Shown one piece after another: positions 30,442 through 56,408 of a DNA stretch of 64,000 bases. This DNA is from Ulva prolifera (taxonomy: Eukaryota; Chlorophyta; Ulvophyceae; Ulvales; Ulvaceae), in contig CM041202.1 of NCBI GenBank assembly GCA_023078555.1, positions 4,646,022 through 4,710,021 on the forward strand, given 5' to 3'. The notes below the pieces were generated by a model, which ran no database searches, was not told the origin of the DNA, and was given only the letters and a program-made list of their open reading frames with translations. How positions within the stretch are numbered: the first letter of the stretch is position 1; every line of letters begins with the position of its first letter. Position numbers and translations under genes: made by a program.

Positions 30442-30711
30442 GGAGTTGTGACCAGGCACCATGCTCCCAAGCCTGGCTCTTTTGCATGTATGTATGTAGG
30501 CTGTCTTACTTGCCCGCTCGGCCGCCGCGGGCAGCGGGGCCCCGCTATCTCGTAGCCCCTTAGCCCCTTACCCCCAGCCGACGCACACCGACGCACACCG
30601 GGCCACCGCGACACCGACGTACGGCCAGAGGTACACCTCTCTTACCTCTCTCTTACCTCTCTGGTGGTCTGCGTGGCCCTGTGTGTGTCGCTTGCAGATC
30701 ACTGGCTCCGG

Positions 30712-31036
30712 TCACGCTCCACGTAATCGCACGTTCCACGTAACCTCACAGCATCGTACGACGACGTCGCGTGGCGCACCGGCGGAATATATGTATGTCT
30801 CTGTTTCTGTTGAAACGCCATCTCTGAACGTTGTCGTCGGGCTGCTGTTGGATGGGTGGGTGGATGGGTGGGAGGGTTGGCAGCTGTGCGGGCATTCCCA
30901 CCACTGGACCCACAGTCTGGCCTTCATCTTGACCTCCAGCCTCCAGCGAACCATCCTGTCGGACGGCTGGAGCAATTGCTCGAGGAAGAAGCCGTCTCGG
31001 CGTGTTGACTGTCGTCATACTGCACTCCGGCTGCAA
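30712..31036 (-). CDS. Conserved terminal exon of the recombinase element, copy 1
   Basis: On the minus strand the frame starting TTVNTPRRL and ending with DDNVQRW and F-R-R-C-A-T-R-R has a counterpart at the same place in copy 2 (VNTPRPL ... HVQRYLTTRD ... FHRCAARR, 48460-48780). The start and end motifs are kept while the middle differs in length and sequence. Such a pattern argues for a real coding exon near the left end of the element. Which gene it belongs to, and its function, are unknown. The frame is arginine-rich and could be the tail of a DNA-binding protein. Confidence 0.4.
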
Positions 31037-31546
31037 TGCCGTTGCGTACAGCGCGGCATGATCCTAGCACATGCAAGGCACGTGAATTCTTATGGTGTGT
31101 ACAAGAAAACTGCAAGGCGATTTGTGGGTTCGCTGCACGTCTTGAATGCTTGTTGATGCTCGTCGATCTTTTGGCGCACCCACACGTCAAGGCATTCCCA
31201 AAAAAGCGCGATAGAATAGCATGCAGCGCAGGTTCCAGATGTGCTGGTGAGCAATGTCCTTTCCATCGGGACCAGGGACACAACGTGTCGCTGCAGACGG
31301 CAGAGCATACAACGTGGCTAAGGGGAGCTTGTGCGATTCTCAGCCGATCGCCTCGTCGGCAGTAACGCGACCTGTAGTGCCAAATCCTGGATGTATCGGT
31401 GTCGAAGGTAACCAGCAGGTGTCAGGTGTGGTCTCAATCTAGCCTGCACGTGTAGCACAAGATCACATCACATTGTCCGTAAGCCCTTAACACATACCGC
31501 TGCCACACATGGCAATATCCCGTGAAACAGTAGGATCAGATCAGAA

Positions 31547-31616
31547 GTGCGTGTAGCTCAGTGGAAGAGCGCTGGCTTCAAGCCAAGAGGCCCGTGTTCA
31601 ACTCACGGCACGTACA
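31547..31616 (+). tRNA. tRNA-like gene with a shortened anticodon loop (pseudogene)
   Basis: The acceptor stem GTGCGTG/CACGTAC pairs over 7 bp with one G-U. The D arm GCTC-AGTGGAA-GAGC is perfect, and so is the T arm CCGTG-TTCAACT-CACGG. Box A (TAGCTCAGTGG) and box B (GTTCAACTC) are good. Between the anticodon stems TGGC and GCCA only five bases (TTCAA) remain, two short of a normal loop, so no anticodon can be assigned. It sits 52 bp before the 126-bp satellite, inside the recombinase element. Confidence 0.6.
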
Positions 31617-31668
31617 GTTTCCAATGCCAGGCTCCCTGCCCACCAGCATCCCTGCCCACCAGCATCCC

Positions 31669-34600
31669 AGCACTGCTTGCCACTTGTAACTGCACATGCC
31701 CCTCTGCCGTGTATGTGTGTGTGATGCCACATGGGGCTGACACTCACAACTGCTGTTGAGTTGTTGGTTGTGTGCAGCAGCTGTGAAGCATTCCAGCACT
31801 GCTTGCCACTTGTAGCTGCACATGCCCCTCTGCTGTGTATGTATGTGTGATGCCACATGGGGCTGACACTCACAACTGCTGTTGAGTTGGTTGTGTGCAG
31901 CAGCTTTGAAGCATTCCAGCACTGCTTGCCACTTGTAACTGCACATGCCCCTCTGCCGTGTATGTGTGTGTGATGCCACATGGGGCTGACACTCACAACT
32001 GCTGTTGAGTTGTTGGTTGTGTGCAGCAGCTGTGAAGCATTCCAGCACTGCTTGCCACTTGTAGCTGCACATGCCCCTCTGCTGTGTATGTATGTGTGAT
32101 GCCACATGGGGCTGGCTGACACTCACAACTGCTGTTGGGTTGTTGGTTGTGTGCAGCAGCTTTGAAGCATTCCAGCACTGCTTGCCACTTGTAGCTGCAC
32201 ATGCCCCTCTGCTGTGTATGTGTGTGTGATGCCACATGGGGCTGACACTCACAACTGCTGTTGAGTTGGTTGTGTGCAGCAGCTGTGAAGCATTCCAGCA
32301 CTGCTTGCCACTTGTAGCTGCACATGCCCCTCTGCTGTGTATGTGTGTGTGATGCCACATGGGGCTGGCTGACACTCACAACTGCTGTTGGGTTGTTGGT
32401 TGTGTGCAGCAGCTGTGAAGCATTCCAGCACTGCTTGCCACTTGTAGCTGCACATGCCCCTCTGCTGTGTATGTGTGTGTGATGCCACATGGGGCTGACA
32501 CTCACAACTGCTGTTGAGTTGGTTGTGTGCAGCAGCTTTGAAGCATTCCAGCACTGCTTGCCACTTGTAGCTGCACATGCCCCTCTGCTGTGTATGTGTG
32601 TGTGATGCCACATGGGGCTGGCTGACACTCACAGCTGCTGTTGGGTTGTTGGTTGTGTGCAGCAGCTGTGAAGCATTCCAGCACTGCTTGCCACTTGTAG
32701 CTGCACATGCCCCTCTGCTGTGTATGTGTGTGTGATGCCACATGGGGCTGGCTGACACTCACAACTGCTGTTGGGTTGTTGGTTGTGTGCAGCAGCTGTG
32801 AAGCATTCCAGCACTGCTTGCCACTTGTAGCTGCACATGCCCCTCTGCTGTGTATGTGTGTGTGATGCCACATGGGGCTGACACTCACAACTGCTGTTGG
32901 GTTGTTGGTTGTGTGCAGCAGCTGTGAAGCATTCCAGCACTGCTTGCCACTTGTAGCTGCACATGCCCCTCTGCTGTGTATGTGTGTGTGATGCCACATG
33001 GGGCTGACACTCACAACTGCTGTTGAGTTGTTGGTTGTGTGCAGCAGCTGTGAAGCATTCCAGCACTGCTTGCCACTTGTAGCTGCACATGCCCCTCTGC
33101 TGTGTATGTGTGTGTGATGCCACATGGGGCTGGCTGACACTCACAACTTCTGTTGGGTTGTTGGTTGTGTGCAGCAGCTGTGAAGCATTCCAGCACTGCT
33201 TGCCACTTGTAGCTGCACATGCCCCTCTGCTGTGTATGTGTGTGTGATGCCACATGGGGCTGACACTCACAACTGCTGTTGAGTTGGTTGTGTGCAGCAG
33301 CTGTGAAGCATTCCAGCACTGCTTGCCACTTGTAGCTGCACATGCCCCTCTGCTGTGTATGTGTGTGTGATGCCACATGGGGCTGACACTCACAACTGCT
33401 GTTGAGTTGGTTGTGTGCAGCAGCTGTGAAGCATTCCAGCACTGCTTGCCACTTGTAGCTGCACATGCCCCTCTGCTGTGTATGTGTGTGTGATGCCACA
33501 TGGGGCTGGCTGACACTCACAACTGCTGTTGGGTTGTTGGTTGTGTGCAGCAGCTGTGAAGCATTCCAGCACTGCTTGCCACTTGTAGCTGCACATGCCC
33601 CTCTGCTGTGTATGTGTGTGTGATGCCACATGGGGCTGACACTCACAACTGCTGTTGGGTTGTTGGTTGTGTGCAGCAGCTGTGAAGCATTCCAGCACTG
33701 CTTGCCACTTGTAGCTGCACATGCCCCTCTGCTGTGTATGTGTGTGTGATGCCACATGGGGCTGACACTCACAACTGCTGTTGAGTTGTTGGTTGTGTGC
33801 AGCAGCTGTGAAGCATTCCAGCACTGCTTGCCACTTGTAGCTGCACATGCCCCTCTGCTGTGTATGTGTGTGTGATGCCACATGGGGCTGGCTGACACTC
33901 ACAACTTCTGTTGGGTTGTTGGTTGTGTGCAGCAGCTGTGAAGCATTCCAGCACTGCTTGCCACTTGTAGCTGCACATGCCCCTCTGCTGTGTATGTGTG
34001 TGTGATGCCACATGGGGCTGACACTCACAACTGCTGTTGAGTTGGTTGTGTGCAGCAGCTGTGAAGCATTCCAGCACTGCTTGCCACTTGTAGCTGCACA
34101 TGCCCCTCTGCTGTGTATGTGTGTGTGATGCCACATGGGGCTGACACTCACAACTGCTGTTGAGTTGGTTGTGTGCAGCAGCTGTGAAGCATTCCAGCAC
34201 TGCTTGCCACTTGTAGCTGCACATGCCCCTCTGCTGTGTATGTGTGTGTGATGCCACATGGGGCTGGCTGACACTCACAACTGCTGTTGGGTTGTTGGTT
34301 GTGTGCAGCAGCTGTGAAGCATTCCAGCACTGCTTGCCACTTGTAGCTGCACATGCCCCTCTGCTGTGTATGTGTGTGTGATGCCACATGGGGCTGACAC
34401 TCACAACTGCTGTTGAGTTGGTTGTGTGCAGCAGCTTTGAAGCATTCCAGCACTGCTTGCCACTTGTAGCTGCACATGCCCCTCTGCTGTGTATGTGTGT
34501 GTGATGCCACATGGGGCTGGCTGACACTCACAGCTGCTGTTGGGTTGTTGGTTGTGTGCAGCAGCTGTGAAGCATTCCAGCACTGCTTGCCACTTGTAGC

Positions 34601-35227
34601 TGCACATGCCCCTCTGCTGTGTATGTGTGTGTGATGCCACATGGGGCTGGCTGACACTCACAACTGCTGTTGGGTTGTTGGTTGTGTGCAGCAGCTGTGA
34701 AGCATTCCAGCACTGCTTGCCACTTGTAGCTGCACATGCCCCTCTGCTGTGTATGTGTGTGTGATGCCACATGGGGCTGACACTCACAACTGCTGTTGGG
34801 TTGTTGGTTGTGTGCAGCAGCTGTGAAGCATTCCAGCACTGCTTGCCACTTGTAGCTGCACATGCCCCTCTGCTGTGTATGTGTGTGTGATGCCACATGG
34901 GGCTGACACTCACAACTGCTGTTGAGTTGTTGGTTGTGTGCAGCAGCTGTGAAGCATTCCAGCACTGCTTGCCACTTGTAGCTGCACATGCCCCTCTGCT
35001 GTGTATGTGTGTGTGATGCCACATGGGGCTGGCTGACACTCACAACTTCTGTTGGGTTGTTGGTTGTGTGCAGCAGCTGTGAAGCATTCCAGCACTGCTT
35101 GCCACTTGTAGCTGCACATGCCCCTCTGCTGTGTATGTGTGTGTGATGCCACATGGGGCTGACACTCACAACTGCTGTTGAGTTGGTTGTGTGCAGCAGC
35201 TTTGAAGCATTCCAGCACTGCTTGCCA
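31669..35227. repeat. 126-bp satellite array, about 28 units, with higher-order structure
   Basis: The unit contains GCACTGCTTGCCACTTGTAG and GATGCCACATGGGGCTGACA. Three length classes alternate: 123 bp (GAGTTGGTTG), 126 bp (GAGTTGTTGGTTG) and 130 bp (an extra GGCT). Long blocks recur: the order of variants repeats with an offset of 758 bp (about six units) and again with an offset of 1899 bp (about fifteen units). Minus-strand frames of up to 295 codons run through it because most units are multiples of three. The 130-bp units shift the frame repeatedly, so these are not taken as genes. Confidence 0.95.
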
Positions 35228-35638
35228 ACAGCTCGGGCATTATGAGGGCAGGTCTGCACATCAGACCGTGTGGCCCTGCTGGCAGCAGGCTAATGCTTAC
35301 GTTTCTAGCACATCTTCTCGTGAAGAAGCCGTCACAGTGCAGTAACAATATGCACATGTGTGTGGACCGCATCCAGGGACTCAATTGCACATTATTGTCA
35401 AGTGCTACCAAGAGTATTTGATCAGCGAAATTTTGATCAGCAATGAACACGCATCGGGGGGGGGGGGGTTCGAATTACAATGTGGGCAAATGCTTCTCAA
35501 CTATCGGCAAAGTTGCAACATAGACGCCGTGCCTGTGGGAATCTCTATCCTATATTGTACATATCCCACACAAACAGCAAAGGCGCCTATATTGCCCGCC
35601 CTTAGAATCACAACAACACTCCAGCTCAGTTGGGTACT
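35228..35638. other. Spacer with a run of 13 G
   Basis: No gene is recognisable between the satellite and the next exons. A G13 homopolymer lies at 35456-35468 and may be of uncertain length. Confidence 0.5.
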
Positions 35639-38091
35639 CTACTCAATTCGTGGGCGTTTGCATGGCTCATGCTGGGTAACTTCTTCTGCCGATTTGCATT
35701 CTACTCTGTTCATGCTCTCCATCAAGACGATTAGGAGTTTGACCGTGGGGCTGTCTTCTCCAGGTGCGGCATGATCACAAACTCTCTTGAGCGCCGCTGC
35801 CTCCTCGATGAGTTTGCAGTGTTTGAGAAAGTAGTGCATTATCTGGCACCTGCACACATCAACCTATTGATATATCATTCACCTCTGACCTGCGATGATG
35901 ACTGTAGCATTTGTATGGCACACACATCACAGACGTGCATGATTCACATGAACAACACAATCCCATGTATGTGATCACACTTGATGGTATCTGTACCTCA
36001 CGGTCCCAACGTCCCGTTCACATGGCGGTGCAACCGATTCACGCAATGACAGTAGCTTGAGGTCAATCAGACACGCGCATGAGCGTGCATACGCTTCGCT
36101 TCCATATTTGGGTGCTTGTTGCCCTGAGAACACCTGCAAAATTGAATGGCCTGATACAGAGCTTTGGATCATTGCTTATACAGAGCAGACAGACAGCTCG
36201 TCACACACCTTGGTGATCCCGCCATGCAAAGCCACGGCAGCAAAAAGGTCGGTGAACAAAACGACGCGACTGTTTGCAGCATCCTCTGATTGGCTGCAGC
36301 TCTGCCCGCCAGGAGGATTTGGCTTCTTCCACGTATACTTCATGCTCTCTTTGCCATACCTGAATCGGATGGGCTTGTCGCCATCTTGCTTTGCCTTGAG
36401 CAACTCTGCCTTCAAATGACCAATCGTCCAATCATGATTGCTGATACCTGTGCCGATCTCATGACTCGCAGAGTCTACCAGGGTTTTTAAACGTGCTGAC
36501 GTTGTTGCGTTGTTTATGGCGGACGTGAGAGAATTAAGCCGATCGCTGCTGGTCGGTGAGCGCTCTGAACACAACACATCCGTAACACAATCGGGCGTCC
36601 ACGAACATCCTGAACAAATAACAAAGAACGTATCGCATTCTGGCAATCTCACCTTGGCACTGGAAAGGAGCCGGCTCCAAAGGATGAGTGCAGGAGTGAT
36701 CCACTGCACCTGGCATATGCATGGACAAAGCCCGATCAGACATTGCAAGCACTGCAGCAGTCACGTCGTGACCTTGGAAGTTGAAACATGATGAGGCCGG
36801 AGTAGGTGTCGAAGCAGGTGCAATGCTAAGATCCAATGGTGCAGCAGCAGTATTAGGTGTAGCTGCATCCGGCCCGAGCTGTTGCGACTCAGCTGTGACG
36901 TGACCCTGAGCCAGCTCTGGCTCTGCCATGTTGCAAGCAGCTTGTGTCTGAGTGTCGATTTGCCTGTCTCCGGATTCATCCATAGGCCAGCACTCTTGCT
37001 GCGATGGTACATTCTCCATATTGCACAGCATTGCGGATTCGTCTTGGGTGTGATGTTCCTCAATGTCTCCAGCATCCTCGCATACTGCCTCGTTCATGAC
37101 AGCAGGATGTTCTGTGGACTCAGCTCGCTCACCAACTCTCGGCTGACAATACCTTTCATTGGGGACTCGGGCCTGGACAGTCAGGCCATCTACCTGCATG
37201 CCGCGGTCGTGATGCAGGTATCAACTGCGTCGCCTACTTCACCAGCATAAAGATTATCGGTAAACAAGTGCACACTTGGGCTTCTAGGGTCATGTGCGAC
37301 CGATTGTTCTTGCGCGATGTAGCACAGTAGTAGATGAACCTCCGTATAGCGGTCTTGTCACATTGCGCATTGTCTTCAGCCAGGATTCCTGAAATCCAGC
37401 GTGCAAGGCTGATAGTACCTTTGATACTTGACAAATTAGCTGCCAAATAATGTTGGGGAAGTGGAAGTCTTGCAACCGGGACACCTGTCCCCTTTGTTGT
37501 GATGCTCATGTACGGCAGGTTCAGGCTCATGAGCACTCTCATTGCAGAAATCTCCAGGATCAGAACGCGCAATTGTTTCAAACAATGAGCGGTGTCAAAT
37601 GTGGACCGCGGAACGGACTCCACTGCACAGGGCGCAACCTGCAAAGCAACACATGCCACACATGAGCCACGTGCAGAATTTTAGCTGTACAGCACATGCA
37701 TGTTGTATTGTGAAATACAAACAGGCCATCACAGCGATCATGCAGGGCGACGGTATACCTGCGATGCTTGTACCAGCACGGCGTCAGCACGTAGTGCTTG
37801 TGCTACCTGGTCAGATCTACCTGTATGAGCAACCTTCTTGCACACCTCATCGATGAACCTCCCGAAGTGTTTCCCACCAACCTTGAAGTCGCCAAGCCCC
37901 AACGGTCCGTATTTGTCTTCCTTGTAGGTGTAGCCTTGCAGAACCGCTGTCACAGCATGGTCGATCTGCATATGGAAGATGTCGTGGCTGCAAGAAGCAA
38001 CACTGTAAACAGTGGCAAGGACGCCCACCTTCACACTAGAGCATCGATAGCCCCATTGATCCAGACTTTTCAACACACTGATTGGCATCAT
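35639..38091 (-). CDS. Second multi-exon gene of the element, function unknown (copy 1 only)
   Basis: Minus-strand frames at about 38091-37760, 37610-37260, 37200-36760, 36640-36180 and 35857-35640 are separated by short gaps typical of the neighbouring introns. They include LGLGDFKVGGKHFGRFIDEV, a proline- and threonine-rich acidic stretch (36800-37150), a basic tryptophan-containing stretch (PIRFRYGKESMKYTWKK) and a basic C-terminal end (CKRPRIE) that could be a nuclear localisation signal. No family was recognised. It lies just downstream of the recombinase stop on the same strand, so it could also be further exons of the same transcription unit. Copy 2 has no counterpart between 49324 and its left end apart from the terminal exon. 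Confidence 0.4.
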
Positions 38092-38190
38092 GTCGTGGCG
38101 AATCTGATCTCGGGGTGGTGGAGGCTCCGTCCCGGCGATCGCTATTAAGCCTGAACAGTTATCACTGTTACAGCTAGTGGAAAGTGCGCA

Positions 38191-41100
38191 TCAGGTGCTA
38201 TAGCATGCCAAGGTGGTCGGCATGCCTTGTTGCTGGCGATGATGATGCTCGAGTGTGTTGTTGATGTTGTTGATTTTCTGCACTGTGGCAGAATCCACAG
38301 TCCGACCTTCGCTCAACTTCACAACCATGTTCTCAATCCCCTCCAGACGTAAGTCTGTTGCTGCACAGTTGCCTTCAGTGGATGCTGCAAGGTTCCTCAC
38401 TGCAGTGAGCACATGTTGCAACTGGCAACGAACTGCTAAACTGCTCCACTCCTACAAAACAAAGACCATATGTTGAAGTTGTTGCGGGCATTGCCGCTGT
38501 TGATAGGCAAGGCATAACATCAGCGCAATAACACCTGCATGCGCCGGTCTGATTGCAACAATAAAGAACCTTCATCCTGAGCCACGACGGCTTGAGCCAG
38601 CATCTCATGTTGTGTTTCACATGTTCTCATATTCATCATAACACTTTCTGCCATGCACCTCACCATGGGAGACTCAGCCCTCTGACAAATCGCCTGAATA
38701 CAAACACGGAGAGGTCGATTGCATGTATCAAGTTGATGTGTGTTGATGCCATCGGAATGGCCCGCGTCTGACACTTCAGCCGTGGTGCCGCCAGGTATGT
38801 CAATAGCATCAGTCAGGGCACTTAGTACATGCAATTGGTGTATGCAACCGAAATGCCATGTGGCCAGCGTTGTTTTGCACCGCATCATGCCAAGCAGGCC
38901 TTTGATGACCCCTTCTCCACAGCACCATGCATGTGTATGCGAAGATCTGATGCTTGGTGTCAAGCAGCATCATGAAGGACACACCATCGTGCTTTGATGA
39001 AGTTCAATGAGACGTGCTTTGTTGCGCTCGATCATCACCTGCATCGTCACTTGCGAATCGTCGTCGTGCTCTGTCGCCAATAAGTGCCTCCGTGCGACCT
39101 GTAACATCATCACGTGACTTGCACGAAACATGCGATCATGCTCATTGATTTTCCCGGCAACTTTTCGTTTACTGGGGGCGCACCTGCGACTCTCGTGCTC
39201 GTAAACGCTTGGTTTCCAGCCGCGCGACATGTGCAGCGGGATCCATCACCTCGTCCGGAACCCTTTGATCCATCAGAAACGTTGCACCGATTGCCTCTGC
39301 TCTGTTAATTATGTAGCTTGGAGGTTCAAATGGTGGCATCTCGTGCCCTGTCATGTGCAGCCGCTTGCATTCGTCCTCGTGATCATTGGAGAGGCGGTAA
39401 ACCTGATCACAGAGCAAGTGTGAATATTCGATTTGAGCTACAGGCAATTCATCACTGAGAGCCACGCGGACACAGACTGCTCAATGAAGCGGAGAAGCAT
39501 GTATTCAATGGTGCCCACCTGCCACTGGAGATCCTCCCATTTCCCCCACAGGTCATCATCGAATAAGGCTCGATTTTCATCAAAATACAAAGGATGATCA
39601 TAAAACAACCAGTGTTCTCGGTACATTCTTAACAAGATGGGTAGCGCCTGGAGGGACCATTCGATCAGAGCCATGCAGCACGAGCAAGCCAAAAGTCGAA
39701 TGAGGTAAGCAGACCTGCGCCAGAACAATGGCAAGGAAGCATAGAACATCGATGAACTTCTCCAGATTGTTGTCTCCTTGGGCGGCAAGACGGGCTTGCA
39801 CCTATATATAGAGTTATACCTGCTATTACCATGTATGATGTGTTGACTGTAAACCATTTGCATCAAGGTGACATCAATGTGAGTCGCACCTCCTTTGTTT
39901 CCACCCACTTTTTGGCTTTCACGATGTCAAGCTGGTTGCCGTCGTTCAGCTGGATCACTGTTGTGTACATCATGGCCTTGATCGCATCTGGAGGCACGAG
40001 GATCCCATGCTTGGGCAGGTAATGTTTTGGCGATTGCCAGTCATGCGTCCAGCACAAGGTGCTTGATGAAGGGGTTGTGTTGTAAGTGTGCCCCAAAGTG
40101 GTCTGGTTCCACTTGCCCGCCCGTGCAGCATCCATCTCACTCCCTCTGCATGATACGCATTCATGAATGGTCTACGTGCTAAAACAGTGATCATCATTCC
40201 TGCCTTTAGGGTGGCAGTCCACTCATGTTCAACAACAGGTTCATGAGACACACCCCTTCTCCACAATCTCCTCTGCCCCATCGCGCCGATTTGTGTGCTG
40301 CTTCTTGGGCAAGCTTCGGCCGAAACACACCTTTTGCATTGTCCGAATCCGTGTATCCATAACGTTTGTGGGGTTGTTGCTGTCTGGGTCGAATGGTGGC
40401 TCCGGGAAACGGCATGTCACCAGCCGAGCTTGCATCCTACACGCACTTGATGTTGTTAAGAGATCTCCACAAGTCGCAACAAACATTCGGGACTCCAGGA
40501 TGCTTTACCATGAATTGCTGTCAGCCACACTCTCGGGCAATGGCTGACCGTCTCCAACAACCAGGCGTTTGAGCATATGAATTGATAAATGCACCAACGG
40601 ACACAACAAGAATTCGTGGCCATAGGTTGTAGCTCGACAGTCGGCATGCTTCCCCTCCTTGTTTGTCTTGGCGCCATGGATCGCAAAAACAACCATGGGC
40701 ATGATGCATGGTCGCACATAGTGATTGATGTATGGAAACATCATCCCGATCTTGAAGTCACGAAACTCTTTGCCCCTGCCTAGCGTTGGCTTTAACATGC
40801 TCTGCTGCCTCCTACATAACAGGTGAATTTTTAAAGTGCTTCGTTGACTCCTGTTCTCCATATCGAGTCGGAGTATGTAGATGTGTTATCATGAGCTCCA
40901 AAAGGCACACACATCCAAAACACATACCCAGTTGATTCATTCCCAAGCTGGTCTTTCAAACTTGGACCACACTGGTATGCCTTCTTCACTTGAACACCTG
41001 ACGTGGCTCGATTCTCACGATTCTTTATGCCAAGCTGCCACAATATCATGATGCTCTCTTTTTTCTCTCGCAGGGTTGGTAGGTACAGGCAAGTATTTTT

Positions 41101-43854
41101 TGTGACGGCGAATGGGTCCCTGAGGCAGTGTCCGCATTCAATGGCTGTTGCATGGATACTGGGGCTGACAACTTACAACTGACGCACCGAGCTGCATCAA
41201 TCTCTTTGCTGAGCGACTGAGCGTGGTTTTTGTAAGCAGCAGTGCTTCTGAATGCCTTGGAAGGGAACTTGTGTCCATAAATCAATTCCCATTGCTTTGT
41301 CAAGTGAACAATGCCATTGGTAATGTTGTTGAAGAACGACAGGGACCCCTGCATACCATGCATACATCTGAGATTGCATGATGTCCAACATAGCCATGTG
41401 CTATCAAACAATTGTTGAGGCTCGTGCTACATGGGGTGAGGCATGAAAAAAAACAGGGCTTTCTCGAGAAGTACCGATGTGAAAGCACTGCTTTGAATGT
41501 AAACGCCGAAGCAGATGCCATCTGTCAATGTCAAAGGCTCGTATAATGTTGTGGCCACTCCGAGCCGCTTGAGCTCCCCCAGATACCTCAAAGTTGGCCA
41601 ATCCGTCCAATGTACTTTCCGGAGCATGCTGCTTGTGCGATCGAGGGCATGAATCTCGTCCAGCGTTTTCCGACCCAGCGAGCCAACGGATACTGCAGAC
41701 AATGGATGCTATCAACATGAAAGGCACAAAGCGTGCTTGCCACAGGAGCTTAGTTGACATACTTTTGTACTGTTCATCATTAGTGAGCTTATCGTATATG
41801 CTCATGAAGACGGAATGGATCCGGGCATGCCATGCAGTGCGACTCTCTTTCATTAACGCCAACAAACTCTTTGCAGGTTCCTCCGCAAGAGCGTCGAGGA
41901 AGCTCTTTGAGCGAGGCTCCTCGCCAAGAACTACAGCTACTTGAGCGCATGCCTCACACACTTGGTCCAGAGGTAGGTCCAATTCCTCCACATTCACCAT
42001 GGGACCAGAGAGGTCGCCATATTGGTCAGTAAATTGTAAAAGCAAGATGGCCCATGCCCCTGTACTGTGCGGAGACAGCCCAAGTTGCAACCATTTCAAG
42101 GCTGCACATCAACATTATGTCACAACTCTCGAGATCACTGTAACACTGTCACACCCAATATTGTAATGAAATGCAATTTAAATTGCAATTTCATACCTGT
42201 TGTTGCCCTGCCCCAAAGCTGATACTGAAAAAACTGCACAAACAACAAGGTCTCTATGGCAGCAGCACCGATGCGTATACTCTCAGATGGAACATCTCCC
42301 ACGTGTGAAGGGGGCTGTTGTGCCTTCACCAAGCACCCAGCCATCCACGCCAGGGAATCAAGGACTGCATACCAAAGCATTGTGATACATGGGCAGATAC
42401 CTAAACATAGACACTTGTCAGTAGCATTCTACCCAAGGGGAATCAGACCATCTTGACAATAATCAGCTTGGTATGCCAATGCCTCTTGGAAGACTGAGTT
42501 GCGCTTCTGAACAAAGTGTCTCCCATTAACAGTCGCCACACTAGAAGCCTGATGACGCTGCAAGAGCACATGTATCTCCCCATTCAAGAACTTCGGCAGC
42601 AGTTTCTCATCAGCGCTTTCATCGACCTTTGCTTTCAGATTCTGCAAATGTTCATGCGATTGACCATGTTGAGGTCAGCAATGAACAATGATGATGCTAT
42701 CTGCTATCTTGTGGCAGGCTGTGCTTTGCGACCAGTCTATGCACAGGCGTACCGGTGCTCGAAATGCTCGCCAAAACGCTGCTTGTATGTCAGGCAAGTG
42801 CTTGTTTGATGAGTCATCAAATGCGATATTTAGCATCTGCTCCATGTGAGCCTCCACATCGGAGGGAGTGACATTCAACATTATAGCCATTCCATCCTTG
42901 ACATCCTGGTTCGCAAGGAATCTTTTGCGCAACGTTTCAGCATCCTTTCCAGCTTGTGTGGCAGCGCGATTCAAAGCCAGCCCATGATCGCGCATCCTCT
43001 TCACCTCTCCCATCCAAGATGTCAGTATCTGTGGCTGCGGAACCGGCATCAACATGAAATCTTCCTGCAACATGAGAGCCAGTTCACCTTGAATGTATAC
43101 GTCACAATTACACATTATGGGACCGAGATTACCTTGCCATCATCTTTGATCAGTGCCACCTTCTGCCAAACATTGGGGTGTGTAATGGACAACCAAACCA
43201 TCAACTCGGAAATCACCTTGCTGTACTTATTAATCTTGTTGTCACCAGTTTCTTGTGAGGGTGACATCGCTGAGGCGGTATCTTTGGCGATGGCCATCAG
43301 GTTCTCACGAACTGTGGTTGTGCCCGTGTCTTTGTGGCTGCACATACAACACATTAGCCAACAAGAACAATCACAATGACACAATCATGCAAAACACACA
43401 AGCTCAATTGTATGCACAAGCACGGAGCTCACGCTGCAATCTTTGCATCAAGCCACTTCTCTTCCACATGGACGCCCAAGTATGATGCTGCAAACTGAAC
43501 TATCTCATAGTCCAGATCACCGCCAACAAGCTTACCCTTGATGATCTGATGTAATGCACTCTTCAGAGAGAGATATAAGGCCTTCGGGCGAACGTTTTCT
43601 ACACACCGCCTATGTTGAGCACGACCTGATCATTTCACATACAAAATGGAACAGTTTGAAAACGACGCATCACGCGCACCATCCCGAAGCCTGTCCATCA
43701 ACTGGTTCAGGTTATCCCGCTCGTCTTGCTGTCGCTGTTCATTGCTGCATGTCACATCATAGTCAGCTGTCGCTGCACTTGCTACCGCGTGGCATTCGGG
43801 CCTTTCAAATTCTGGCTCGCTCTGTTCGCCAGACAGCGCCGGGACACAGTCCAT
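38191..43854 (-). CDS. Crypton/Ndc10-like tyrosine recombinase, multi-exon, copy 1
   Basis: About twenty minus-strand exons, each matched by an exon of copy 2, read from an acidic start (43854) to a stop at 38191. The first roughly 3 kb encode conserved blocks without known domain, for example HKDTGTTTVRENLMAI, EDFMLMPVPQPQ and RKRFLANQDVKDGMA. The C-terminal half carries the recombinase: arginine in GKEFRDFKIG (about 40770), HGAKTNKEGKHADCR followed by LLCPLVHLSIH, then HTNRRDGAEE (HxxR, about 40290), AGKWNQ and the tyrosine in GHTYNT (about 40080), and HYLPKHGILVPP. This order and spacing is that of the Ndc10_II/Crypton family, which cuts DNA through a tyrosine. Coiled-coil-like exons follow (38.2-39.5 kb). 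I saw no stop inside the catalytic exons. Introns are short. The protein would act in the nucleus on the ends of its own element (inference). Confidence 0.7.
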
Positions 43855-44169
43855 ACGACCTGAAAAAGCACTACATAGCGGCTCTCAACGGCTTGCTTGC
43901 TGTTCAGAGCCAATTCAAGAACGCGTTGCGGAAGCTGTCACAAAAAGCCCACTGTGCGCTGAACGGCACGCGCACCACATACAAACGCAGTGAGAAGACA
44001 GATAACAATATGCATAGATGATTTGCGCTGCGTATAGGCTTTCATGATCACTGCAGTGCTCCGTCTGGCTGCCACCAGGCTAAGGCTGCCTTAGCCCTGA
44101 CCCTCGATATCTCAATCCTCCCCGCACTACCCGTAGCCCCTTACCGGGTAGTCAATGTGTATGCTCTAG

Positions 44170-45650
44170 GTAATGTCAACTTTTTTCTTTGCTCTCTTTT
44201 GTCGATCGATTCGTGTGTCATGTTGGTCCATGTTAGCGCGGCGCGCACAGAAGGTTCTGGAAGCCATGTCTGCACACAAACTTCATCTTGCACAAGCCTG
44301 AGGCCGGACTCGAACCGGCGTCAACTGTAATGGACACTGAACACTCGACCACTCCGTTGCCATGCTCTGTTGCTAGTAGGCATTAGGTATTAAGTTGTAT
44401 ACAACACACAATTGATGCTGCTTCGCTCTCCATATCTCTCCCCCGAGATCCTATTCTCACATTTGTAACCGTCTGCTATGCAAGCTGCTGTCGGCTTATT
44501 CAGCAACCAGTTGTAGGCTGCATCATTGCTGAACGCTGATGGATATTCTAGAACATCCTCAGTGTCAAGACCACGAGCTACGACGGCCTCTACGTTGTAC
44601 ATCAACGGTAGAAAATCCCTAGAAAATTTGGCTCTTTGATGCTTCTCGATGATGGCCATGAGCCGCTGGCCCTGTGGGTCCATCGTCGACATGTTTCAGT
44701 ACAACTTTGCAAGGTTTGTGACAGTCCGGTGACACACTCTAACACGATTCACCGAGTTGTGTTTGCTCGTTTGCTTATCTCATTCATTGACCATTCATCG
44801 CTTGTTCTTCTCGACGGTCTGAACAACGGGCGACATGCTAGCATGGAGCACGCGCGCGGCTCGAATCGATCGCGCGAAATGCGCCACGAAAGTTCGGTTT
44901 CGCGGTAATGTGGACCTTTACGTTATAGTTTTGGCACTTGCTCGCCTTTAGGATCACGCGTAGCTGCCATTAGCTGACGCGCACCCTGTCGGGTTTACGG
45001 TTTACTAAGGGGAGTCGGACGCCCTAGGAAGATTCAGGGTCTGGCTAGGCCGCCTGTTTCTCGCGTATGCCACGTGCTTGTTCGCATTGTCGCCAATCAG
45101 TCCTGGCCTGGTTGTCCATGATATGATGCATGAGCAAGATATCAGAGTCCCGTCACATTGTAGTTATCTCGGGTTTCGCTCACGTTTGATTTTCCTATGT
45201 GCACATTCGCACATCACGCGTGAGTAGGGTTCAAGCCCATGAACCCCGCGGCAATTCGAGTTCAGCCGCGATACCTGGAATATTCTAGTTGCACGACACT
45301 ATGGGTGAACATCAGTGCGTTCAAGGGCCATTTGCAGGTGGCAGCCTTGTCCTAATCATATACATTCCAGTCCCCGAGTGATTCATTCATTGCATTCTGT
45401 CAACGTGTACACCCTACGGTCAGTCTCCGCGCCAGTGCGTGCACAGACCGTCTCTCGCCTCTGCTAGCCGCCATGTCCGTTCGAACAAATTCACGGTCAT
45501 GATTTCACAGCCTTTTAACCCTCCGGAAGCTCCGGACCCAGCTTGGCCAAGGTACCGGCATTGGAGTGCATTCGGGTCGTTGACGTTATCGATTAAGGCG
45601 GCGCCGCTTCGTGCGCCAGCCCATTTGCTACGCGTTTCTTTTGTCAGCTT
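44170..45650 (+). other. Gypsy C internal sequence between insertion 1 and protease, no clear gene
   Basis: This should hold the rest of gag, but no capsid or zinc-knuckle motif was found. A minus-strand frame at 44390-44692 (with KHQRAKFSRDFLPLMYNVEA) has no recognised family. On the minus strand near 44290-44370 lies a tRNA-like 3' half with a perfect T arm (GCCGG-TTCGAGT-CCGGC), but no matching acceptor 5' strand. Confidence 0.4.
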
Positions 45651-45890
45651 GCAATTAGCTGTAAGAAGGCCACCCGCCTTCAAGGGATTTCCAGCTCGAA
45701 CCGCTTCGGCGCAGAGCTTAACAGCCACCAGCTTGGCTATAAGGCCACCCGTCTTGAAGGGTATTCCAGCTCGTACCGCTTCGGCGCAGAGCCTATTCCG
45801 GCTCTCACCACTTGGGTGCAGAGCTTATTCCAGCTCGTACCGCTTCGGCGCAGAGCGTATTCACTCTTAACGCTTAGGCGCAGAGTTTCT
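45651..45890 (+). repeat. Short tandem repeat before the gypsy C protease
   Basis: The motif CAGCTCGTACCGCTTCGGCG followed by CAGAGC recurs, with variants, near 45692, 45770, 45802, 45834 and partly 45865. The spacing is about 32 bp in the last units. The first two units are separated by a longer block containing GGCCACCCG. Confidence 0.75.
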
Positions 45891-47453: not shown

Positions 47454-48376
47454 CCTGTCCCGCAGGACTTGCTACCACTCGCTACAAGGAACATTCGGTC
47501 TCTGACGAGACTACATCGCAGATTATGCGCGCATTCTTGCGCTGCTCATCAATTTGTTACGCAGCGATGTTCCCTAGCGATGGTGGGAGGACGTTGAAGT
47601 AGCTGCTTTTTGCAAAACTGAAGGCCAGCATTCTTGCTGCGCCTGTATTAGCAAGGCCAGATCCCGAATCCCCTTTCCATATACTTTCCGATGCTAGTGA
47701 TTACGCTGTAGGTTCCTCATTGGAGCAGGACACACTCACTGGTCGACGAGCAGTTGCCTTTTCCTCGCATACGTTGGCTGATCGCGAACGCAGGTACCCA
47801 GTGCACGAGCGTGAGCTGTTAGCTGTTGTGTTGGCACTTTGCTTATGGCATCACTATTTGTATGGCTCGGAATTTACAATTACTTGCAGCACTGACCATC
47901 GGCCTCTGCAACACTTCATGTCGCAAGCTAACTTGTCTCCTCGACAGGTCAGATGGCAGCAATTTCTGTAAGAGTTCAATCTGTCGGTTGAATACGTTCC
48001 CGGCTCTGTCAACTCATTTGCTGACGGTTTGTCTAGGCGCGACGACCTGCGTCTTATGCTGGTCGCTTCTTGTGTGCCATAAGACATCGTCCTGTCTGAA
48101 GTTAGAGGGATTGCACACCACCAAGGAAGGTAAGCGCATCATTGCAAGAGCGCGTTCTCCCCGCTACAAAGACTTCAGCTTCAAACACGGATTGGTTTAC
48201 TTTCGTCCGTCGAGGGGCGCATCGACTGTTTGTCCCATTCTTCCGCAACCTGCGTGCCAAATTGCTCCACGATTACCATGACATTGATATAGGTGGTCAT
48301 TTTGGATATGCTAAGACTTATCATGCTCTGACCCAACATTTCTATTGGCCTGATATGTCAGCTGCCGTCCAGGAGT
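47454..48376 (+). pseudogene. gypsy C RNase H and integrase zinc domain, interrupted
   Basis: After a stop and a frame change the RNase H follows: SDASDYAVGSSL and RYPVHERELLAVVLAL, and its tether SPRQVRWQQFL up to about 47970. A further frame carries the start of integrase, LLHDYHDIDIGGHFGYAKTY (first two zinc ligands) and FYWPDM. The coding sequence is cut at 48376 by the left end of the second recombinase element. It resumes at 62118 with the second pair of zinc ligands, C-P-I-C-Q. Confidence 0.85.
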
Positions 48377-48445
48377 GCTATCTTACTTGCCCGACTCGCG
48401 CGTGGCGGGCGTCGGGCTCCCGTTATCCCGTAGGCCCTTAGCCCC

Positions 48446-48868
48446 TTAGCCCTCCAGCCCTGGCCGAAAACATCCGCAGCGTCGCGCGGCGCACCGGTGG
48501 AAGAGATACAGGTCTCTGGTGGTGAGGTAGCGCTGGACGTGCTCTTCGATGTCGTCGGCGGTCGTCCGGCCAGGCCTCGCCGCACCGTCGTAGAACCTCT
48601 GCCCAGGGCTGCTACCAGCCAATGCTCCACCCCCTCCAGATCGATGCCCAGTCGGACGTCCATCTACACCATTGTGGCTGTTGACTAGGTTTTGGGCGGC
48701 GTTTGAGGGATGGAGCGGTCTCGGCGTGTTGACTTCGTACAAAACCAACGCTCGCTCGCTGCGTCCATAACCCACGCGGTCCGATAGGCTGCTATCGTTC
48801 AATAGAACCCCTGCTGATGCAAAGTGCAATCCGCTATGTGGTCGTTTCCGATAATTCCAGACATGCAC
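48446..48868 (-). CDS. Conserved terminal exon of the recombinase element, copy 2
   Basis: The minus-strand frame contains VNTPRPLHPS, a glycine-rich centre, ADDIEEHVQRYLTTRDLYLF and HRCAARRCGCF. It has the same order of motifs as the frame at 30712-31036 in copy 1. The middle is different in the two copies. The function is unknown. Confidence 0.4.
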   Translation of the reverse strand: MHVWNYRKRPHSGLHFASAGVLLNDSSLSDRVGYGRSERALVLYEVNTPRPLHPSNAAQNLVNSHNGVDGRPTGHRSGGGGALAGSSPGQRFYDGAARPGRTTADDIEEHVQRYLTTRDLYLFHRCAARRCGCFRPGLEG

Positions 48869-48998
48869 TTTTCGACAAACTCACAGGTTTCTACTGAGTA
48901 AACTGTGGCGTAGGGGGCCATGCCGGATACGCACCGTTGCCATCTTTGCATTCACTGCGGGAAAGGCACGCGCACGACGGCAGCGCACCATAAATAAC

Positions 48999-49277
48999 TG
49001 CATCAACTATTGCATTCTGGGTAGGGCAAACAGAGCAGCACAGAGCAGCACACATCCAGTGCAACAGCATCAACTGTTGCATTCTGGACAGAACAACGGA
49101 GCAGCACACATCCAGTGCAACAGCATCAACTGTTGCATTCTGGACAGAACAACACAGCAGCACACATCCAGTGCAACAGCATCAACAGTTGCATTCGGGA
49201 CAGAACAACAGAGCAGCACACATCCAGTGCAACAGCATCAACTGTTGCATTCTGGACAGGGCAACAGAGCAGCACCC
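48999..49277. repeat. 56-bp minisatellite with internal hairpin
   Basis: Units start at 49061, 49117, 49173 and 49229 with an exact period of 56 bp; a diverged unit precedes and a partial one follows. Each begins with GCAACAGCATCAACTGTTGC, a 7-bp stem with a 6-base loop (one unit has a changed stem base). It lies between the stop of the recombinase gene and the left end of the element, in the same relative place as the large satellite of copy 1. Confidence 0.9.
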
Positions 49278-49384
49278 CTATACCTTGATCTAGTCACAAG
49301 CGATCATCAACGAATAGCTGATGCTACAGGTTATCATACGTTGCATGAGTGGCAGCCACACCTTCTTGCTGCCGATGATGATGT

Positions 49385-49733
49385 TGTCATAAAAGCTATC
49401 ATACGTGCAGGTCAGGACGCGCAGTCCTTGTTCAGGTCAGGTCAGGACAGCCAACATCTCATACCTGCTGCGCACAGAGGTAGAACCGAGAGATGTTGAA
49501 GGGAAGTGCTAGTACCGGGAAACAGTAAAGAGAATGGTTACAGATCTCAGTGTGCACGAGCTTATATGCACACTGAACAGTCACAGCTACGGCGGGAAAA
49601 CCCTCGCGGGATCTCTCTCACTACATCGAGACAATCTCGGCTGGCGGCTTACCCCTGCACTAGATCCGCGGATCGTTCGTGCATGGGTGCACCTGTCACC
49701 ACACTGCTGCCCGCAGGCTCATGCATTGTGACA
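49385..49733 (-). repeat. 3' LTR of copia D
   Basis: This 349-bp LTR runs TGTCA...TGACA on the plus strand and contains the TATA-like stretch CTTATATGCACA at 49560-49571. Its minus-strand neighbour TATGGGGGAG (49734-49743) is the polypurine tract. Confidence 0.92.
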
Positions 49734-49750
49734 CTCCCCCATAAACCCTG

Positions 49751-50807
49751 CTAAGTCTCCACTAGCTGGAGTTTATTACGAACTTCTTGCAAGGCAGGTC
49801 CGGGCAGCACTTTAGTAAACACATCCGCTAACTGATCAACAGTGCCTACCCATGCTACCTTAAGTTCGTCCATCTGGACATATTCCCGCACTCGCAAGTG
49901 CCGCACACGAATGTGCTTGGATCTGTCAGTGGACACAGCATTAACAGCCAATATGTTGGCACTCTTATTGTCACCCCACAGAGTCGGCTTATGTGGGACG
50001 AGTTTCAAATCGAGAAGCAACTGCTTCACCCACATCAACTCGTTGGCTGTTGCACTCATCGCAATGAGTTCAGCCTCTGTTGTATCCCCAGCCACTATAC
50101 TCTGCTTCTTCGAACGCCAGAGAACACAGTTCCCATACACCCGAATAACCATACCAGACACGCTTTTCAGATCAGCAGAGTTCGCAAAATCTGCATCCGA
50201 ATAAGCCTCTAACAAACACCCGTGTCCCTCAGAGCCTATAAATTTTATTCCTAAATTCTTTGTGGACTGCAGGTATCTCAGAACATGTTGCACGGCAGAC
50301 CAATGTTCCTTTAGACTACTAGACATGTGCCGGGCCAGGGCATGTGCCACATAGCTCAGGTCAGGTCGTGTCACTCCTGCAATATACTGGATGCTTCCTA
50401 CAACACTCATGAACCTGGAATGCTCAGCAGCACTGGCTTTTTCCAGGTCAGGATGCTCTTTCGCACTCCTTAGTTGTTGCCGCGGCACTAAGGGAGTGGG
50501 AGACTTGCGACAGTCAGACATATTGTACTTTTCAAGCAAGTTTCGAATTTTGTTTCGTTGTGTCATGATGATTGTTTTGGCCTTGCGATCACGCATGATC
50601 TCTGTGCCAAGTGCCCATGCAAGTTCACCTAAATCTCTGCCCTCAAATTTTGTGAGAATGATGTCGACAAGTTCTTGTAACCCCGCAGAGCTACTAAATA
50701 TGAACAAGTCATCGACCCATAAGAAAATAAAGCAGCGACCAGATGTTCTGACATACAGTCCGGGATCACTTTGTGCGCACACAAATCCCATCTCAGCTTT
50801 TTTAACC
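49751..50807 (-). CDS. copia D Pol, end of reverse transcriptase and RNase H
   Basis: This minus-strand part of Pol lies downstream of the inverted duplication. It contains GFVCAQSDPGLYV, the catalytic box W-V-D-D-L, the thumb region, and RNase H with AYSDADFANS, SKKQSIVAGDTTEAELIA and LWGDNKSA. It ends with ADVFTKVLPGP and a stop at 49751. These are the normal C-terminal parts of a copia Pol. In the intact ancestor it was continuous with the frame ending near 51246. Confidence 0.9.
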
Positions 50808-51245
50808 CCTGAGCTATGTGGCACATGCCCTGGCCCGGCACATGTCTAGTAGTCTAAAGGAACATTGGTCTGCCGTGCAACATGTTCTGAGATACCTGCA
50901 GTCCACAAAGAATTTAGGAATAAAATTTATAGGCTCTGAGGGACACGGGTGTTTGTTAGAGGCTTATTCGGATGCAGATTTTGCGAACTCTGCTGATCTG
51001 AAAAGCGTGTCTGGTATGGTTATTCGGGTGTATGGGAACTGTGTTCTCTGGCGTTCGAAGAAGCAGAGTATAGTGGCTGGGGATACAACAGAGGCTGAAC
51101 TCATTGCGATGAGTGCAACAGCCAACGAGTTGATGTGGGTGAAGCAGTTGCTTCTCGATTTGAAACTCGTCCCACATAAGCCGACTCTGTGGGGTGACAA
51201 TAAGAGTGCCAACATATTGGCTGTTAATGCTGTGTCCACTGACAG
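49923..51245. repeat. 438-bp inverted duplication inside copia D
   Basis: Sequence 49923-50360 (RNase H region) is repeated in inverted orientation at 50808-51245, with a 447-bp spacer. I saw no difference between the arms. The inverted copy sits exactly between two codons of the reverse transcriptase, with no sign of loss at the site, so it is an added segment. The plus-strand open frame 50818-51339 is only the RNase H read in the inverted arm. Confidence 0.92.
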
Positions 51246-54200
51246 CCCTTTATTAAAGCTTTATGCCACTCGCGAGCAGCTTGCTTCAGGCCATACAGGG
51301 TTTTATGCAATCTCCAGACACGTGCTGTCCCGTCAGTGAAGAACGGGGGCTGTTCAACGAACACTTCTTCTTCTAGCTCGCCATTCAGAAAAGCGCACTG
51401 AATGTCTATGTGCCTAATCTCTAAGTCTTCCTGAGCAGCAACTGACAGCAACACACGCAGTGTCGCATAACTACCGACAGGAGACCAAGTCTCAAAAAAG
51501 TCTACACCTTCTACCTGAGAAAAACCACGAGCTACATATCGTGCCTTATACCGCTGAACCTCGCCAGCAGGCCCACGCTTGATCTTGAGCACCCATTTGC
51601 CCGAGATAGCCCGTTTGCCCGCAGGGAGATAGCACAACCCGAAGGTTCCGTGCTCACCCAGTGCATCTACCTCCTCCTGCATGGCACGCAGCCATGCATC
51701 CCTGTCAGCACTCGCGAGCGCTTCCTTCAAAGAAGGCATATCAGGGTCGGAGGCCTTCTGCTTCCTGGCGGCAGCTGCTCTGCGCGACCCACGACGCTGA
51801 GCATTCTGCTGCTCACCAGACTCCACATGCTGAGGCTTCAGGCCTGCACAGGACACTCCACAGTCAGCCGCGGCTGATGTGTCCTGATCGCAAGCTGAAG
51901 CATCCATAGCAACTACAACTGTTTCACTACTAGCAATGTCAGAGCCCGCAGGCTCATGCATTTGTACAGCTGCTACATCCGCAGCCAATGGAACAAGGCG
52001 TCTGCGTACAAGAGGATTGATTTTAATACGAGGTAAGGCAGCTGGAATGGCCCTCACCTCGTCAGGCAAATCAACCCCAACCGCGGCTGAGGGGTCCGGA
52101 TCCTCTCCCCCTAATTCGGACCCGGTCTCCACCTCATCTGGCTCATCCTCCCAGAAGGGCCTCGGCGCCTCAGCTCCTCGCAAGGGCTGAGCAACTGCCC
52201 CCGCGCCAGATGCTGAGGCCGCTGCCGAATTACTCCCAGAGCGGACCCGCTGAGCCTCCAGATTCTGATGAGCCGCAGCTCTTTCATCATCTGAGACGGT
52301 GTAGTCCATGCGCTGTTCGTCATCGTCGTCATAAATGCCAGGACTGTCATCATCGGACGGATCCTCCATGTCGTCATCAGACGCACTGACAGACATTCGA
52401 ATGGGGAGCGCAACTTCTACACCAGGGTCGTGCAACACAGCATTGCGCGTAACAACATACCGCGCGGTGCGAGAGGGCGTGGCGACAGGATGATACACTT
52501 CGCCGGGAACACGAGGGGGAGCAGGGACGGCAGGTTGAGCAGCAGCTCTGGACATTGCACGCGTGCGATGCAAAGCTGTTCTGGCTATTTCCGGCGTTGC
52601 CCTAGCAGGGTCACGTCGGATAATCTCCGCAGAGGAGCCAGCTCCAAATCGTGGAGAGTACGCAGTAGGATCAGGGTCAGGGTTGTCCTGCCGGAATGTC
52701 ATTTCCATGACAGGAACCCTACCATGGCCAGGGGGGGTGTGAAGCTGGTCACGCAGACGGCGCAACACTCCCCCATCATACGTGTGCTCTGCCGCGAAAG
52801 GAGGCACATCTGCGTCAGTCACACGCTCACCCTCATCGTCCCCCTCGAAAGCAACCGTATAGGAGTTCGCAAACTCCTCAGGTTCCCTCTTGTCCACAAC
52901 GGCGGACGCATCGTACTTGCGTACGTGCCGGATCATCTGATCCGCAGTGCACATCACCTGACGCACAACAAAAACCCTACCCCCAGGAACGTCCTGGGCG
53001 TACACACGCTGCATGCTGGGGCCCAACCCAGCCCCGACCCAGTATGCAGGCACACCCCGCGGGGACAACTTCCGCAGCTTGTCATCCCTAGGGTATGCAT
53101 ACACTTCAACCCCCCATGGACGCTGCTGCCGCAGCAGATCTTGGAACACCTCAACGGAGGTGTCTCGGAAAAAGGCCATATAAGGAATGATATCCTTATC
53201 ACAAGACCGCACCAAAAACTCATCTAATTCTGTTGTCGCAAGCAACTTGTACTTGCGTTTCTCCTCATCCCTCAACTTATCGCGCTCGGCCTTTTTCATA
53301 CGCTTACCCTTCCCCAGGCTCTTTTCAGCTTCGTCAACGTCCGCAGACGCATTGACAGCATGCTGAGCTTTCAGGCCCTTGAGGATGCTCGCCAGTTTGT
53401 CATGGTACAATGCCGATGATGGCGTGAGGTTGTGACCATGGACAACGCTGGCGAGGCATTCTATCCACAGGAACAGAGGCAGGCCGCTCGCGAGCAGCAC
53501 AGCACGGAGTGACTCAAAGGCCACTCCGATCCTCCTCTCGATCATGCCATTACAGCGATGAGCGGCTGTGGGGGTCAAGCGGTGAGTGATGCCACGACGC
53601 TGGAGGTAGAGCTTTAAGGCCGCGACCATAAACTCTCCCCCTTTGTCGGTGTGTAGGATGCGCACACCCGGTTCACCTGGCTTCACCACATTCACCCGAA
53701 TGCGTTCGATAATATAAGAGATCATGGCCGCAGCCTCACTCTTTTTGCGCAGACCTACCACGAAAGTATAACGGGTAAAGGCACACATCACAAACAAAAC
53801 ATATTTCACACCACCAATTCCTACTGGAGAGACAGGACCAGCTAAATCGGCGTGCAGTTGCTCACCAGGCCACTTGGCCTGGCCCATGAGCTCACGATCA
53901 TTTGCAGAGAACTTGCCCGCAGGCACTTTGCCAATTCTGCAGCCGTGACACCGATTCCCCAGTGGCTCGGAATCGACATCCAAATTCAAAAGACCATAAA
54001 ATTCACTGTTGGATTGCATGCGCTTGAGAACCCAATTAGACTGGTGAAAAGACAAGTGTGCTAGAAAAGCAGGCGCCAGCAAGTATGCATCATGCGGGAC
54101 CTCAGCTCCCCCAGCATTGGGTCGCTGCAGGTCAATGGCCGCGACCGCCACATGATGCCACTGCTGTTGATCCTCAACAACTGAGGTCGGACTGCTCTGG

Positions 54201-55753: not shown

Positions 55754-56045
55754 CCTGCATCAGGACAGATGGTTGTTTGTCGCGCGCAGCAACTAACCAG
55801 TGGGATTGCTCGCAAGCAAACAGGTTGAGAAAACAAGCGAACGCGTTCGCTCTTCTCAGCGCTGATCATTAAAACAAGCTTCTCGAATTGTGTCTAACAA
55901 CAATATGCTACGAGAGAGCTAAATGATTCCTGCGCTTTTGACCGCAGTCTGAGCGCCGGCGGAACAGTGGAATGCCCGCCGTGTCTGCGCGCAGACATTG
56001 GCCGACGGCTTTCCTGAACAAGACCATAAACAGACATAACGCTAA

Positions 56046-56059
56046 CATCACCGATACCA
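56046..56059 (-). promoter_or_regulatory. Primer-binding site of copia D
   Basis: On the minus strand TGGTATCGGTGATG abuts the 5' LTR. The first 12 bases agree with the TRIM site and, with one change, with that of gypsy B. Confidence 0.75.
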
Positions 56060-56408
56060 AGTCATAAAAGCTATCATACGTGCAGGTCAGGACGCGCAGT
56101 CCTTGTTCAGGTCAGGTCAGGACAGCCAACATCTCATACCTGCTGCGCACAGAGGTAGAACCGAGAGATGTTGAAGGGAAGTGCTAGTACCGGGAAACAG
56201 TAAAGAGAATGGTTACAGATCTCAGTGTGCACGAGCTTATATGCACACTGAACAGTCACAGCTACGGCGGGAAAACCCTCGCGGGATCTCTCTCACTACA
56301 TCGAGACAATCTCGGCTGGCGGCTTACCCCTGCACTAGATCCGCGGATCGTTCGTGCATGGGTGCACCTGTCACCACACTGCTGCCCGCAGGCTCATGCA
56401 TTGTGACA
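56060..56408 (-). repeat. 5' LTR of copia D
   Basis: This 349-bp LTR appears identical to 49385-49733 except for its outermost base at the primer-site side (56060). It is followed on the plus strand by the target duplication GATGT. Confidence 0.92.

Follow-up and report, generated by a model that had tools for sequence, protein, structure and literature searches.

Several features of a 64,000-nucleotide stretch of the Ulva prolifera genome (GenBank assembly GCA_023078555.1, contig CM041202.1, positions 4,646,022 to 4,710,021 of the forward strand; hereafter the window) indicate that it very probably carries an autonomous DNA transposon moved by an Ndc10/Crypton-type tyrosine recombinase. First, the element, which we call A, has ends and empty sites that can be read to the base. 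Second, its gene belongs to a family in which a full set of tyrosine-recombinase residues is invariant. A sequence-only reading of the window had proposed a transposon with two copies of such a gene. The transposon is borne out, since its copies are nearly identical and sharply delimited and empty sites exist, whereas the two copies are in fact two distinct families, A and B.

Ends, copies and empty sites of two element families

Copies were sought in 44 contigs (88.9 Mb), and the counts given here are lower bounds. Three contig ends that were read showed no telomere motif. Element A occurs three times (window, C7 and C2), its main compared stretches being 99.9% (C7) and 99.3% (C2) identical to the window copy. 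The copies match as far as 44170 and 30498, the sequence outside differs between them, and both ends recur in the C7 copy (L031/L046) and the C2 copy (L032, L060). The termini read CCT-AGAGCATACACATTGAC at the 5′ end and ...GGGCAAGTAAGACAG-CCT at the 3′ end, and CCT flanks both sides in all three copies. The C7 copy lacks window bases 42410–44001, and the C2 copy (L032) is interrupted by another repeat inside the 130-bp array.

Family B comprises at least five insertions (window, C7, C8, C6 and C1), the shared parts of which are 98.6–99.4% identical to the window copy; L034, L035/L036, L037 and L033/L048 were the other copies used to place its ends. Uninterrupted copies join 56409 directly to 49385. 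The 5′ end of the window copy reads TGTAC-AGAGCATACCCC, and the flanks at the five 5′ ends are TGTAC (three times), TGCAC and CACAC, with CAC at all six 3′ ends read. Both families begin with AGAGCATAC and end with GGGCAAGTAAGA(C/T)A. No terminal inverted repeats were found at the termini of the copies with both ends (two of A, three of B), the longest inverted match being 9 bp, subterminal, in B. At C1 the 3′ end lies ~29 kb from the 5′ end, and the locus thus holds much more than element B. A B copy with its 5′ flank is duplicated there (G000 C1:8810001-8847400; L035, L036), the two lying ~27.6 kb apart and being 99.9% identical over 9.5 kb. A further C1 fragment (L038) is 91% identical, and additional end matches occur at C2:8935748 and elsewhere.

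The empty sites of four insertions show a repeated core of 2–3 bp only (CCT for A, YAC for B). When the flanks of A on C7 were joined with one CCT, 28 of 31 genome places spanned the join; the best five covered 140 of 140 bases at 96–99%, and two of the three non-spanning places are the copy's own flanks. For A on C2, 11 of 16 places span the flank join. At the C8 site of B, the uninterrupted form of the retrotransposon (three copies) reads ...CT-TGTAC-GCAGACG and the insertion reads TGTAC, then AGAGC, at one end and GATAGC, then AC-GCAGACG, at the other; thus, only AC was doubled. Relatives of the B site on C1, ~85% alike, agree by eye with an empty site. Joining the flanks of window B gives the open frame ...VQEYIRRCPICQRSK..., and an integrase zinc-binding domain (PF17921, 4.6e-21) spans the join, although the host retrotransposon is itself frame-shifted further upstream. 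That host is a gypsy-type long terminal repeat (LTR) element, and a copia-type element lies inside B, so that the window contains a nest of three levels. Judged by these sites, A and B are mobile elements that end sharply and duplicate no target sequence other than the core.

The recombinase gene and its catalytic site

The sequence-only reading had placed a minus-strand, multi-exon gene at 43854–38191, and both the gene structure and the ATG at 43854 hold in the light of the window's reading frame and the exon layout common to the paralogue. The 19 exons of this span encode 1,279 amino acids (aa) in one reading frame. Gene B (56371–61797, minus strand) has the same 19-exon layout, with 13 of the 19 exons equal in length, and this agreement fixes the splice model of A; the two proteins are 54% identical. 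The proportion of synonymous differences (pS) between A and B is 0.75, with synonymous sites saturated, against 0.29 for nonsynonymous differences (pN), which indicates that the reading frame is under selection and has not arisen by chance. The visible end of the window B gene runs into the inserted LTR element, and uninterrupted B copies continue as A does. The exon-2 donor of the window copy of B, at 61386, is non-canonical and differs from that of the three other B copies compared; this copy therefore looks degraded.

The end of gene A proposed by the earlier reading, 38191, is probably wrong, since that stop would sit in intron 19 and the frame continues through seven more exons. The splice of intron 19 and six further introns give a continuous frame of 26 exons (1,894 aa) with a single, terminal stop at 35639, and all introns are GT-AG save intron 19. 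Paralogues B (copies L034 and L037) and C (L039) have a phase-1 GT donor at this place where A has GC, and the downstream acceptor is present in A, B (L034) and C. Because A, B and C share this phase-1 junction, we favor a single long gene over a second gene downstream, and gene A probably runs past 38191 to 35639 as one 1,894-aa product. It is unlikely that two adjacent genes are present, one for a 1,279-aa recombinase and one for a separate protein of ~600 aa. The stop at 38191 does close the first frame of A, the donor of its intron 19 is GC, and the tandem array of B is located at the intron-19 place, all of which would fit two genes. However, besides the common junction, all later phases fit through exon 26, the ATG that A and B have at this place is missing in C, and the recombinase part occurs together with the extension of ~600 aa in A (three loci), B (C8 copy) and C, the extension being kept in all three. 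A short isoform of 1,279 aa that ends at the stop in intron 19 is possible.

A genome search with exons 11–13 yielded 36 exon-level matches, which represent A, B, C (a 47% relative) and two further groups, D and E, near 28%; the most distant subfamily is 25–26% identical to A. There are thus at least five subfamilies within one genome. D (L040, L044) and E (L041, L042, L045) likewise occur at several loci that have their 5′ ends in common, and E begins right at GTAC. An alignment of the spliced core of one member per subfamily has 332 columns, of which 29 are invariant, among them R722, K758, N760, H858, R861, W884 and Y893 in five of five subfamilies. The R-to-W spacing is 23 in all five and the W-to-Y spacing 9 in A, B and C. 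The spacings of Cre and XerD are likewise 23 and 9.

Every block named in the sequence-only reading (GKEFRDFKIG, GKTNKEG, CPL, HTNRRDGA, AGKWN, a tyrosine and YLPK) was found in gene A, with two shifts of residue. In the arginine block it is R722 of GRGKE, rather than the R in FRDF, that is conserved. Among the tyrosines this holds for Y893 (TYNTT), whereas the tyrosine of YLPK is replaced by F in B and V in C; the nucleophile is probably Y893. The proposed Ndc10_II/Crypton signature stands for paralogues B (3.3e-11, 43.2 bits) and C (6.6e-14, 52.1 bits), which exceed the curated Pfam cut-off for NDC10_II of 26.3 bits and cover nearly the whole profile, but gene A itself falls just under it. 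Together with R, K, HxxR, W and Y invariant in five subfamilies, these matches support the proposed assignment to the tyrosine recombinases. A profile of the five subfamilies was also compared with 177,635 PDB sequences. Cre ranked first (E=0.056), its HxxR, W and Y falling in register with those of the family, followed by Kluyveromyces lactis Ndc10 (E=0.58–0.81, not significant). As we read this alignment, the worth of the Cre match lies in the register of these residues and not in its score.

Other searches returned little. Up to E=10, a Pfam scan of the first 1,279 aa of A gave NDC10_II alone, and GCR1_C was missing there and in the extension; the N-terminal 710 aa gave only DUF883 (E=1.8), far below its cut-off. 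The C-terminal extension had no match in Pfam, for which the final gene model was scanned, or in PDB (profile search, 0 hits), and a full-length A/B profile also gave 0 hits in PDB. Neither DUF3504 nor DUF3435 (PF11917) was matched in Pfam scans of the family proteins. PHROGs and NCBIfam searches gave nothing useful, no relative was found among 48 pattern matches in viral contigs, and a genome search with the PF16787 profile found no match, nor did its control, so that this search is uninformative.

Proposed mechanism and alternative explanations

We hypothesize that the enzyme, probably as a tetramer, would join the two element ends via the short core into a circle, the junction of which would read GTAAGAYAG-core-AGAGCATAC or, in the case of A, GTAAGACAG-CCT-AGAGCATAC. 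The circular intermediate of Cryptons is likewise a proposal (PMC3212892). The circle would then recombine with a target bearing the same 3-bp core, CCT for A and YAC for B, with no target duplication except that core. Y893 would act as the nucleophile with R722, K758, H858, R861 and W884 as helpers. Probable roles for the long N-terminal region and for the C-terminal extension of ~600 aa are binding of the element ends or the target, or regulation of the enzyme. By eye, GTAAG and CATAC, which border the core, form a weak inverted match of the kind that recombinase arms would show.

A number of observations weigh against a Crypton-type recombinase transposon. With respect to the enzyme, gene A lies below the NDC10_II cut-off (24.5 bits as core, 20.1 bits as whole protein), the profile is weak in D (12.3 bits) and has no match in E, the W-to-Y spacing in D and E is 10 and not 9, and the Cre match is by itself not significant. 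An AlphaFold2 model (mean predicted local distance difference test score, pLDDT, 36.2; predicted template modeling score, pTM, 0.21) was not used; its input was a read-through of B exons 10–15 in which introns and stops were read as residues, with an alignment of five rows, all from the window. With respect to movement, the empty-site support for window A is weak, as four of eight places pass the join by only 12–15 nt, where chance alone carries the left flank of this copy 7 nt across, and for B the comparisons covered the insertions in the window, on C8 and on C1. The 2–3 bp core is shorter than the 4–6 bp repeats of fungal and oomycete Cryptons (PMC3212892). Finally, the circle, the transcript and the enzyme activity are predictions from sequence.

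It is very improbable that A and B are non-autonomous passengers of another enzyme, that is, a DDE transposase, a Helitron-type Rep or a DIRS-type retroelement. Such a passenger would fit an element in which one gene only was found and whose enzyme activity is predicted from that gene. Nevertheless, the lack of terminal inverted repeats and of target duplication greater than 2–3 bp at the tested sites is as expected of tyrosine recombinases, and in both A and B the gene has been conserved along with the ends. Moreover, Pfam found no reverse transcriptase (RT) or DDE transposase in the A protein or in five open reading frames (ORFs) of the 3′ remainder of A (five of the 11 listed there, array ORFs and shorter ones being left out); the missing RT also sets the element apart from DIRS/Ngaro retroelements. 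Least probable of all is domestication, in which a Crypton recombinase became a host gene for DNA binding only, in the manner of Ndc10, Gcr1 or ZMYM2: the many introns, the very long extra regions and the purifying selection between A and B recall a host gene, but the loci are multicopy and near-identical with sharp ends and empty sites, and the full catalytic set is kept, while domesticated DUF3504 copies lost most of theirs (PMC3212892).

Two further regions of the window, 6817–10684 and 24836–29289, contain related bodies in opposite orientation that are ~70–75% alike and resemble the RT region at 46614–47450; both are probably retrotransposons. A relative of the window's copia-type element, 81–89% alike, is inserted in the C6 copy of B (L033/L048), though at a different position.

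Coordinates of the features in the window (positions of the window; exons in order of transcription)
Feature	Position	Strand	Remarks
Element A, whole, 13,673 bp	30498..44170	minus	two ends recurring with different flanks
Recombinase gene A, full model	35639..43854	minus	26 exons, 1,894 aa; exon layout of paralogues (B, C)
Gene A exons 1–6	43854-43680, 43598-43433, 43337-43133, 43064-42753, 42641-42449, 42364-42197	minus	
Gene A exons 7–12	42101-41763, 41692-41475, 41348-41188, 41119-40928, 40811-40509, 40436-40254	minus	
Gene A exons 13–18	40145-39890, 39801-39715, 39647-39519, 39402-39184, 39098-38985, 38693-38535	minus	
Gene A exons 19–22	38451-38226, 38150-38029, 37965-37759, 37638-37276	minus	
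Gene A exons 23–26	37193-36710, 36564-36209, 36133-35997, 35849-35639	minus	
Exon 11	40509..40811	minus	box I R722 (codon 40777-40775); K758 (40669-40667) in GAKTNKEG; CPL block
Exon 12	40254..40436	minus	H858 (40297-40295) xx R861 (40288-40286); aligned to Cre HxxR
Exon 13	39890..40145	minus	W884 (40111-40109), Y893 (40084-40082); aligned to Cre W and Y
Intron 19 of gene A, 75 nt, GC-AG	38225-38151	minus	holds stop at 38191
130-bp tandem array, 28 copies at 95%	31661..35227	minus	3′ part of element A
Element B, 5′ part, with gene of 19 visible exons	56409..62120	minus	gene from 61797 past 56409
Element B, 3′ part	48374..49385	minus	3′ end ...GTAAGATAGCAC-T
56-bp array in B	49040-49275	minus	inside intron 19
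copia-type LTR retrotransposon, not part of B	49386..56408	minus	348-bp LTRs 100% identical; copia gag, pol domains
gypsy-type LTR retrotransposon split by B	45871-48373 and 62121 onward		protease, RT, RNase H, integrase zinc-binding domain

Relationship to Cryptons and other tyrosine-recombinase elements

Our best reading of these sequences is a Crypton-like transposon whose recombinase far exceeds those of Cryptons in length and in number of introns; Cryptons are usually compact with few introns. The algal element shares with Cryptons (CryptonF/S/A/I) an R-H-R-Y recombinase, the lack of inverted repeats, low copy number and similarity to NDC10_II, and differs from them in its 13.7 kb, 26 exons and 1,894-aa protein. 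It also differs in its green-type host, which is missing from the host table (Table 1) of Kojima and Jurka (2011; PMC3212892), where fungi, animals and stramenopiles are given. The genome has light-harvesting genes, with 38 exon-level matches to PF00504; one of them agrees best with PDB chains that bear the name chlorophyll a-b binding protein, the top chain being LHCI-2 of 9vfj. The term green-type is taken from these names, which would also suit a secondary green plastid. Our literature searches, which did not extend to Repbase, brought up no paper that reports a green-algal or plant Crypton, the sources compared including PMC12134995, PMC12220804, PMC3627910, PMC5963040, PMC4157794 and PMC11630846. 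CryptonF has GCR1_C, the C-terminal region of CryptonS is conserved, a C-terminal domain is missing from animal Cryptons, and some oomycete Cryptons encode an extra peptidase (PMC3212892). Because GCR1_C is missing, the algal element is not a CryptonF by domain; it resembles CryptonS, which likewise lacks GCR1_C and conserves its C-terminal region. Fungal and stramenopile Cryptons also have short direct repeats at their ends, and none were found in animals (PMC3212892). Recombinases of the CryptonA/DUF3504 type are unlike the algal proteins, which have no DUF3504 match.

Among other relatives, domain II of Ndc10/Cbf2 (yeast CBF3; PDB 3sqi, 3t79 and 6p7w) belongs to the same Pfam family, with a weak, not significant profile match; this protein is domesticated and its catalytic site not preserved (PMC3212892), whereas the algal gene keeps its site. 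The likeness to Cre of phage P1 extends to the register of HxxR, W and Y and the R-23-W-9-Y spacing, although Cre is a phage enzyme of about 343 aa and the sequence match is not significant. Starship elements, with a DUF3435 captain, are similar in having a recombinase gene near the 5′ end and mobility through a tyrosine recombinase (PMC12134995), but the algal element has no DUF3435 match, a single gene and no cargo seen, and measures 13.7 kb compared with 15–700 kb. Kangaroo, a retroelement with a tyrosine recombinase, is known from Volvox (PMC4157794).

We raise as a tentative idea, more doubtful than not, that these elements form a separate green-lineage superfamily sister to all Crypton groups, with a multi-domain, spliceosome-dependent recombinase of ~1,900 aa encoded in 26 exons, the extra domains of which would serve end binding and target choice. 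The finding adds a host with green-type antennae to the known range of Cryptons. In this host, a recombinase gene has grown very long and intron-rich, yet the whole catalytic set has been kept and recent movement is on record. The natural ends, cores and empty sites of two families make target choice by eukaryotic tyrosine-recombinase transposons directly testable, and the extra domains offer new ground for learning what such recombinases require beyond the catalytic core.

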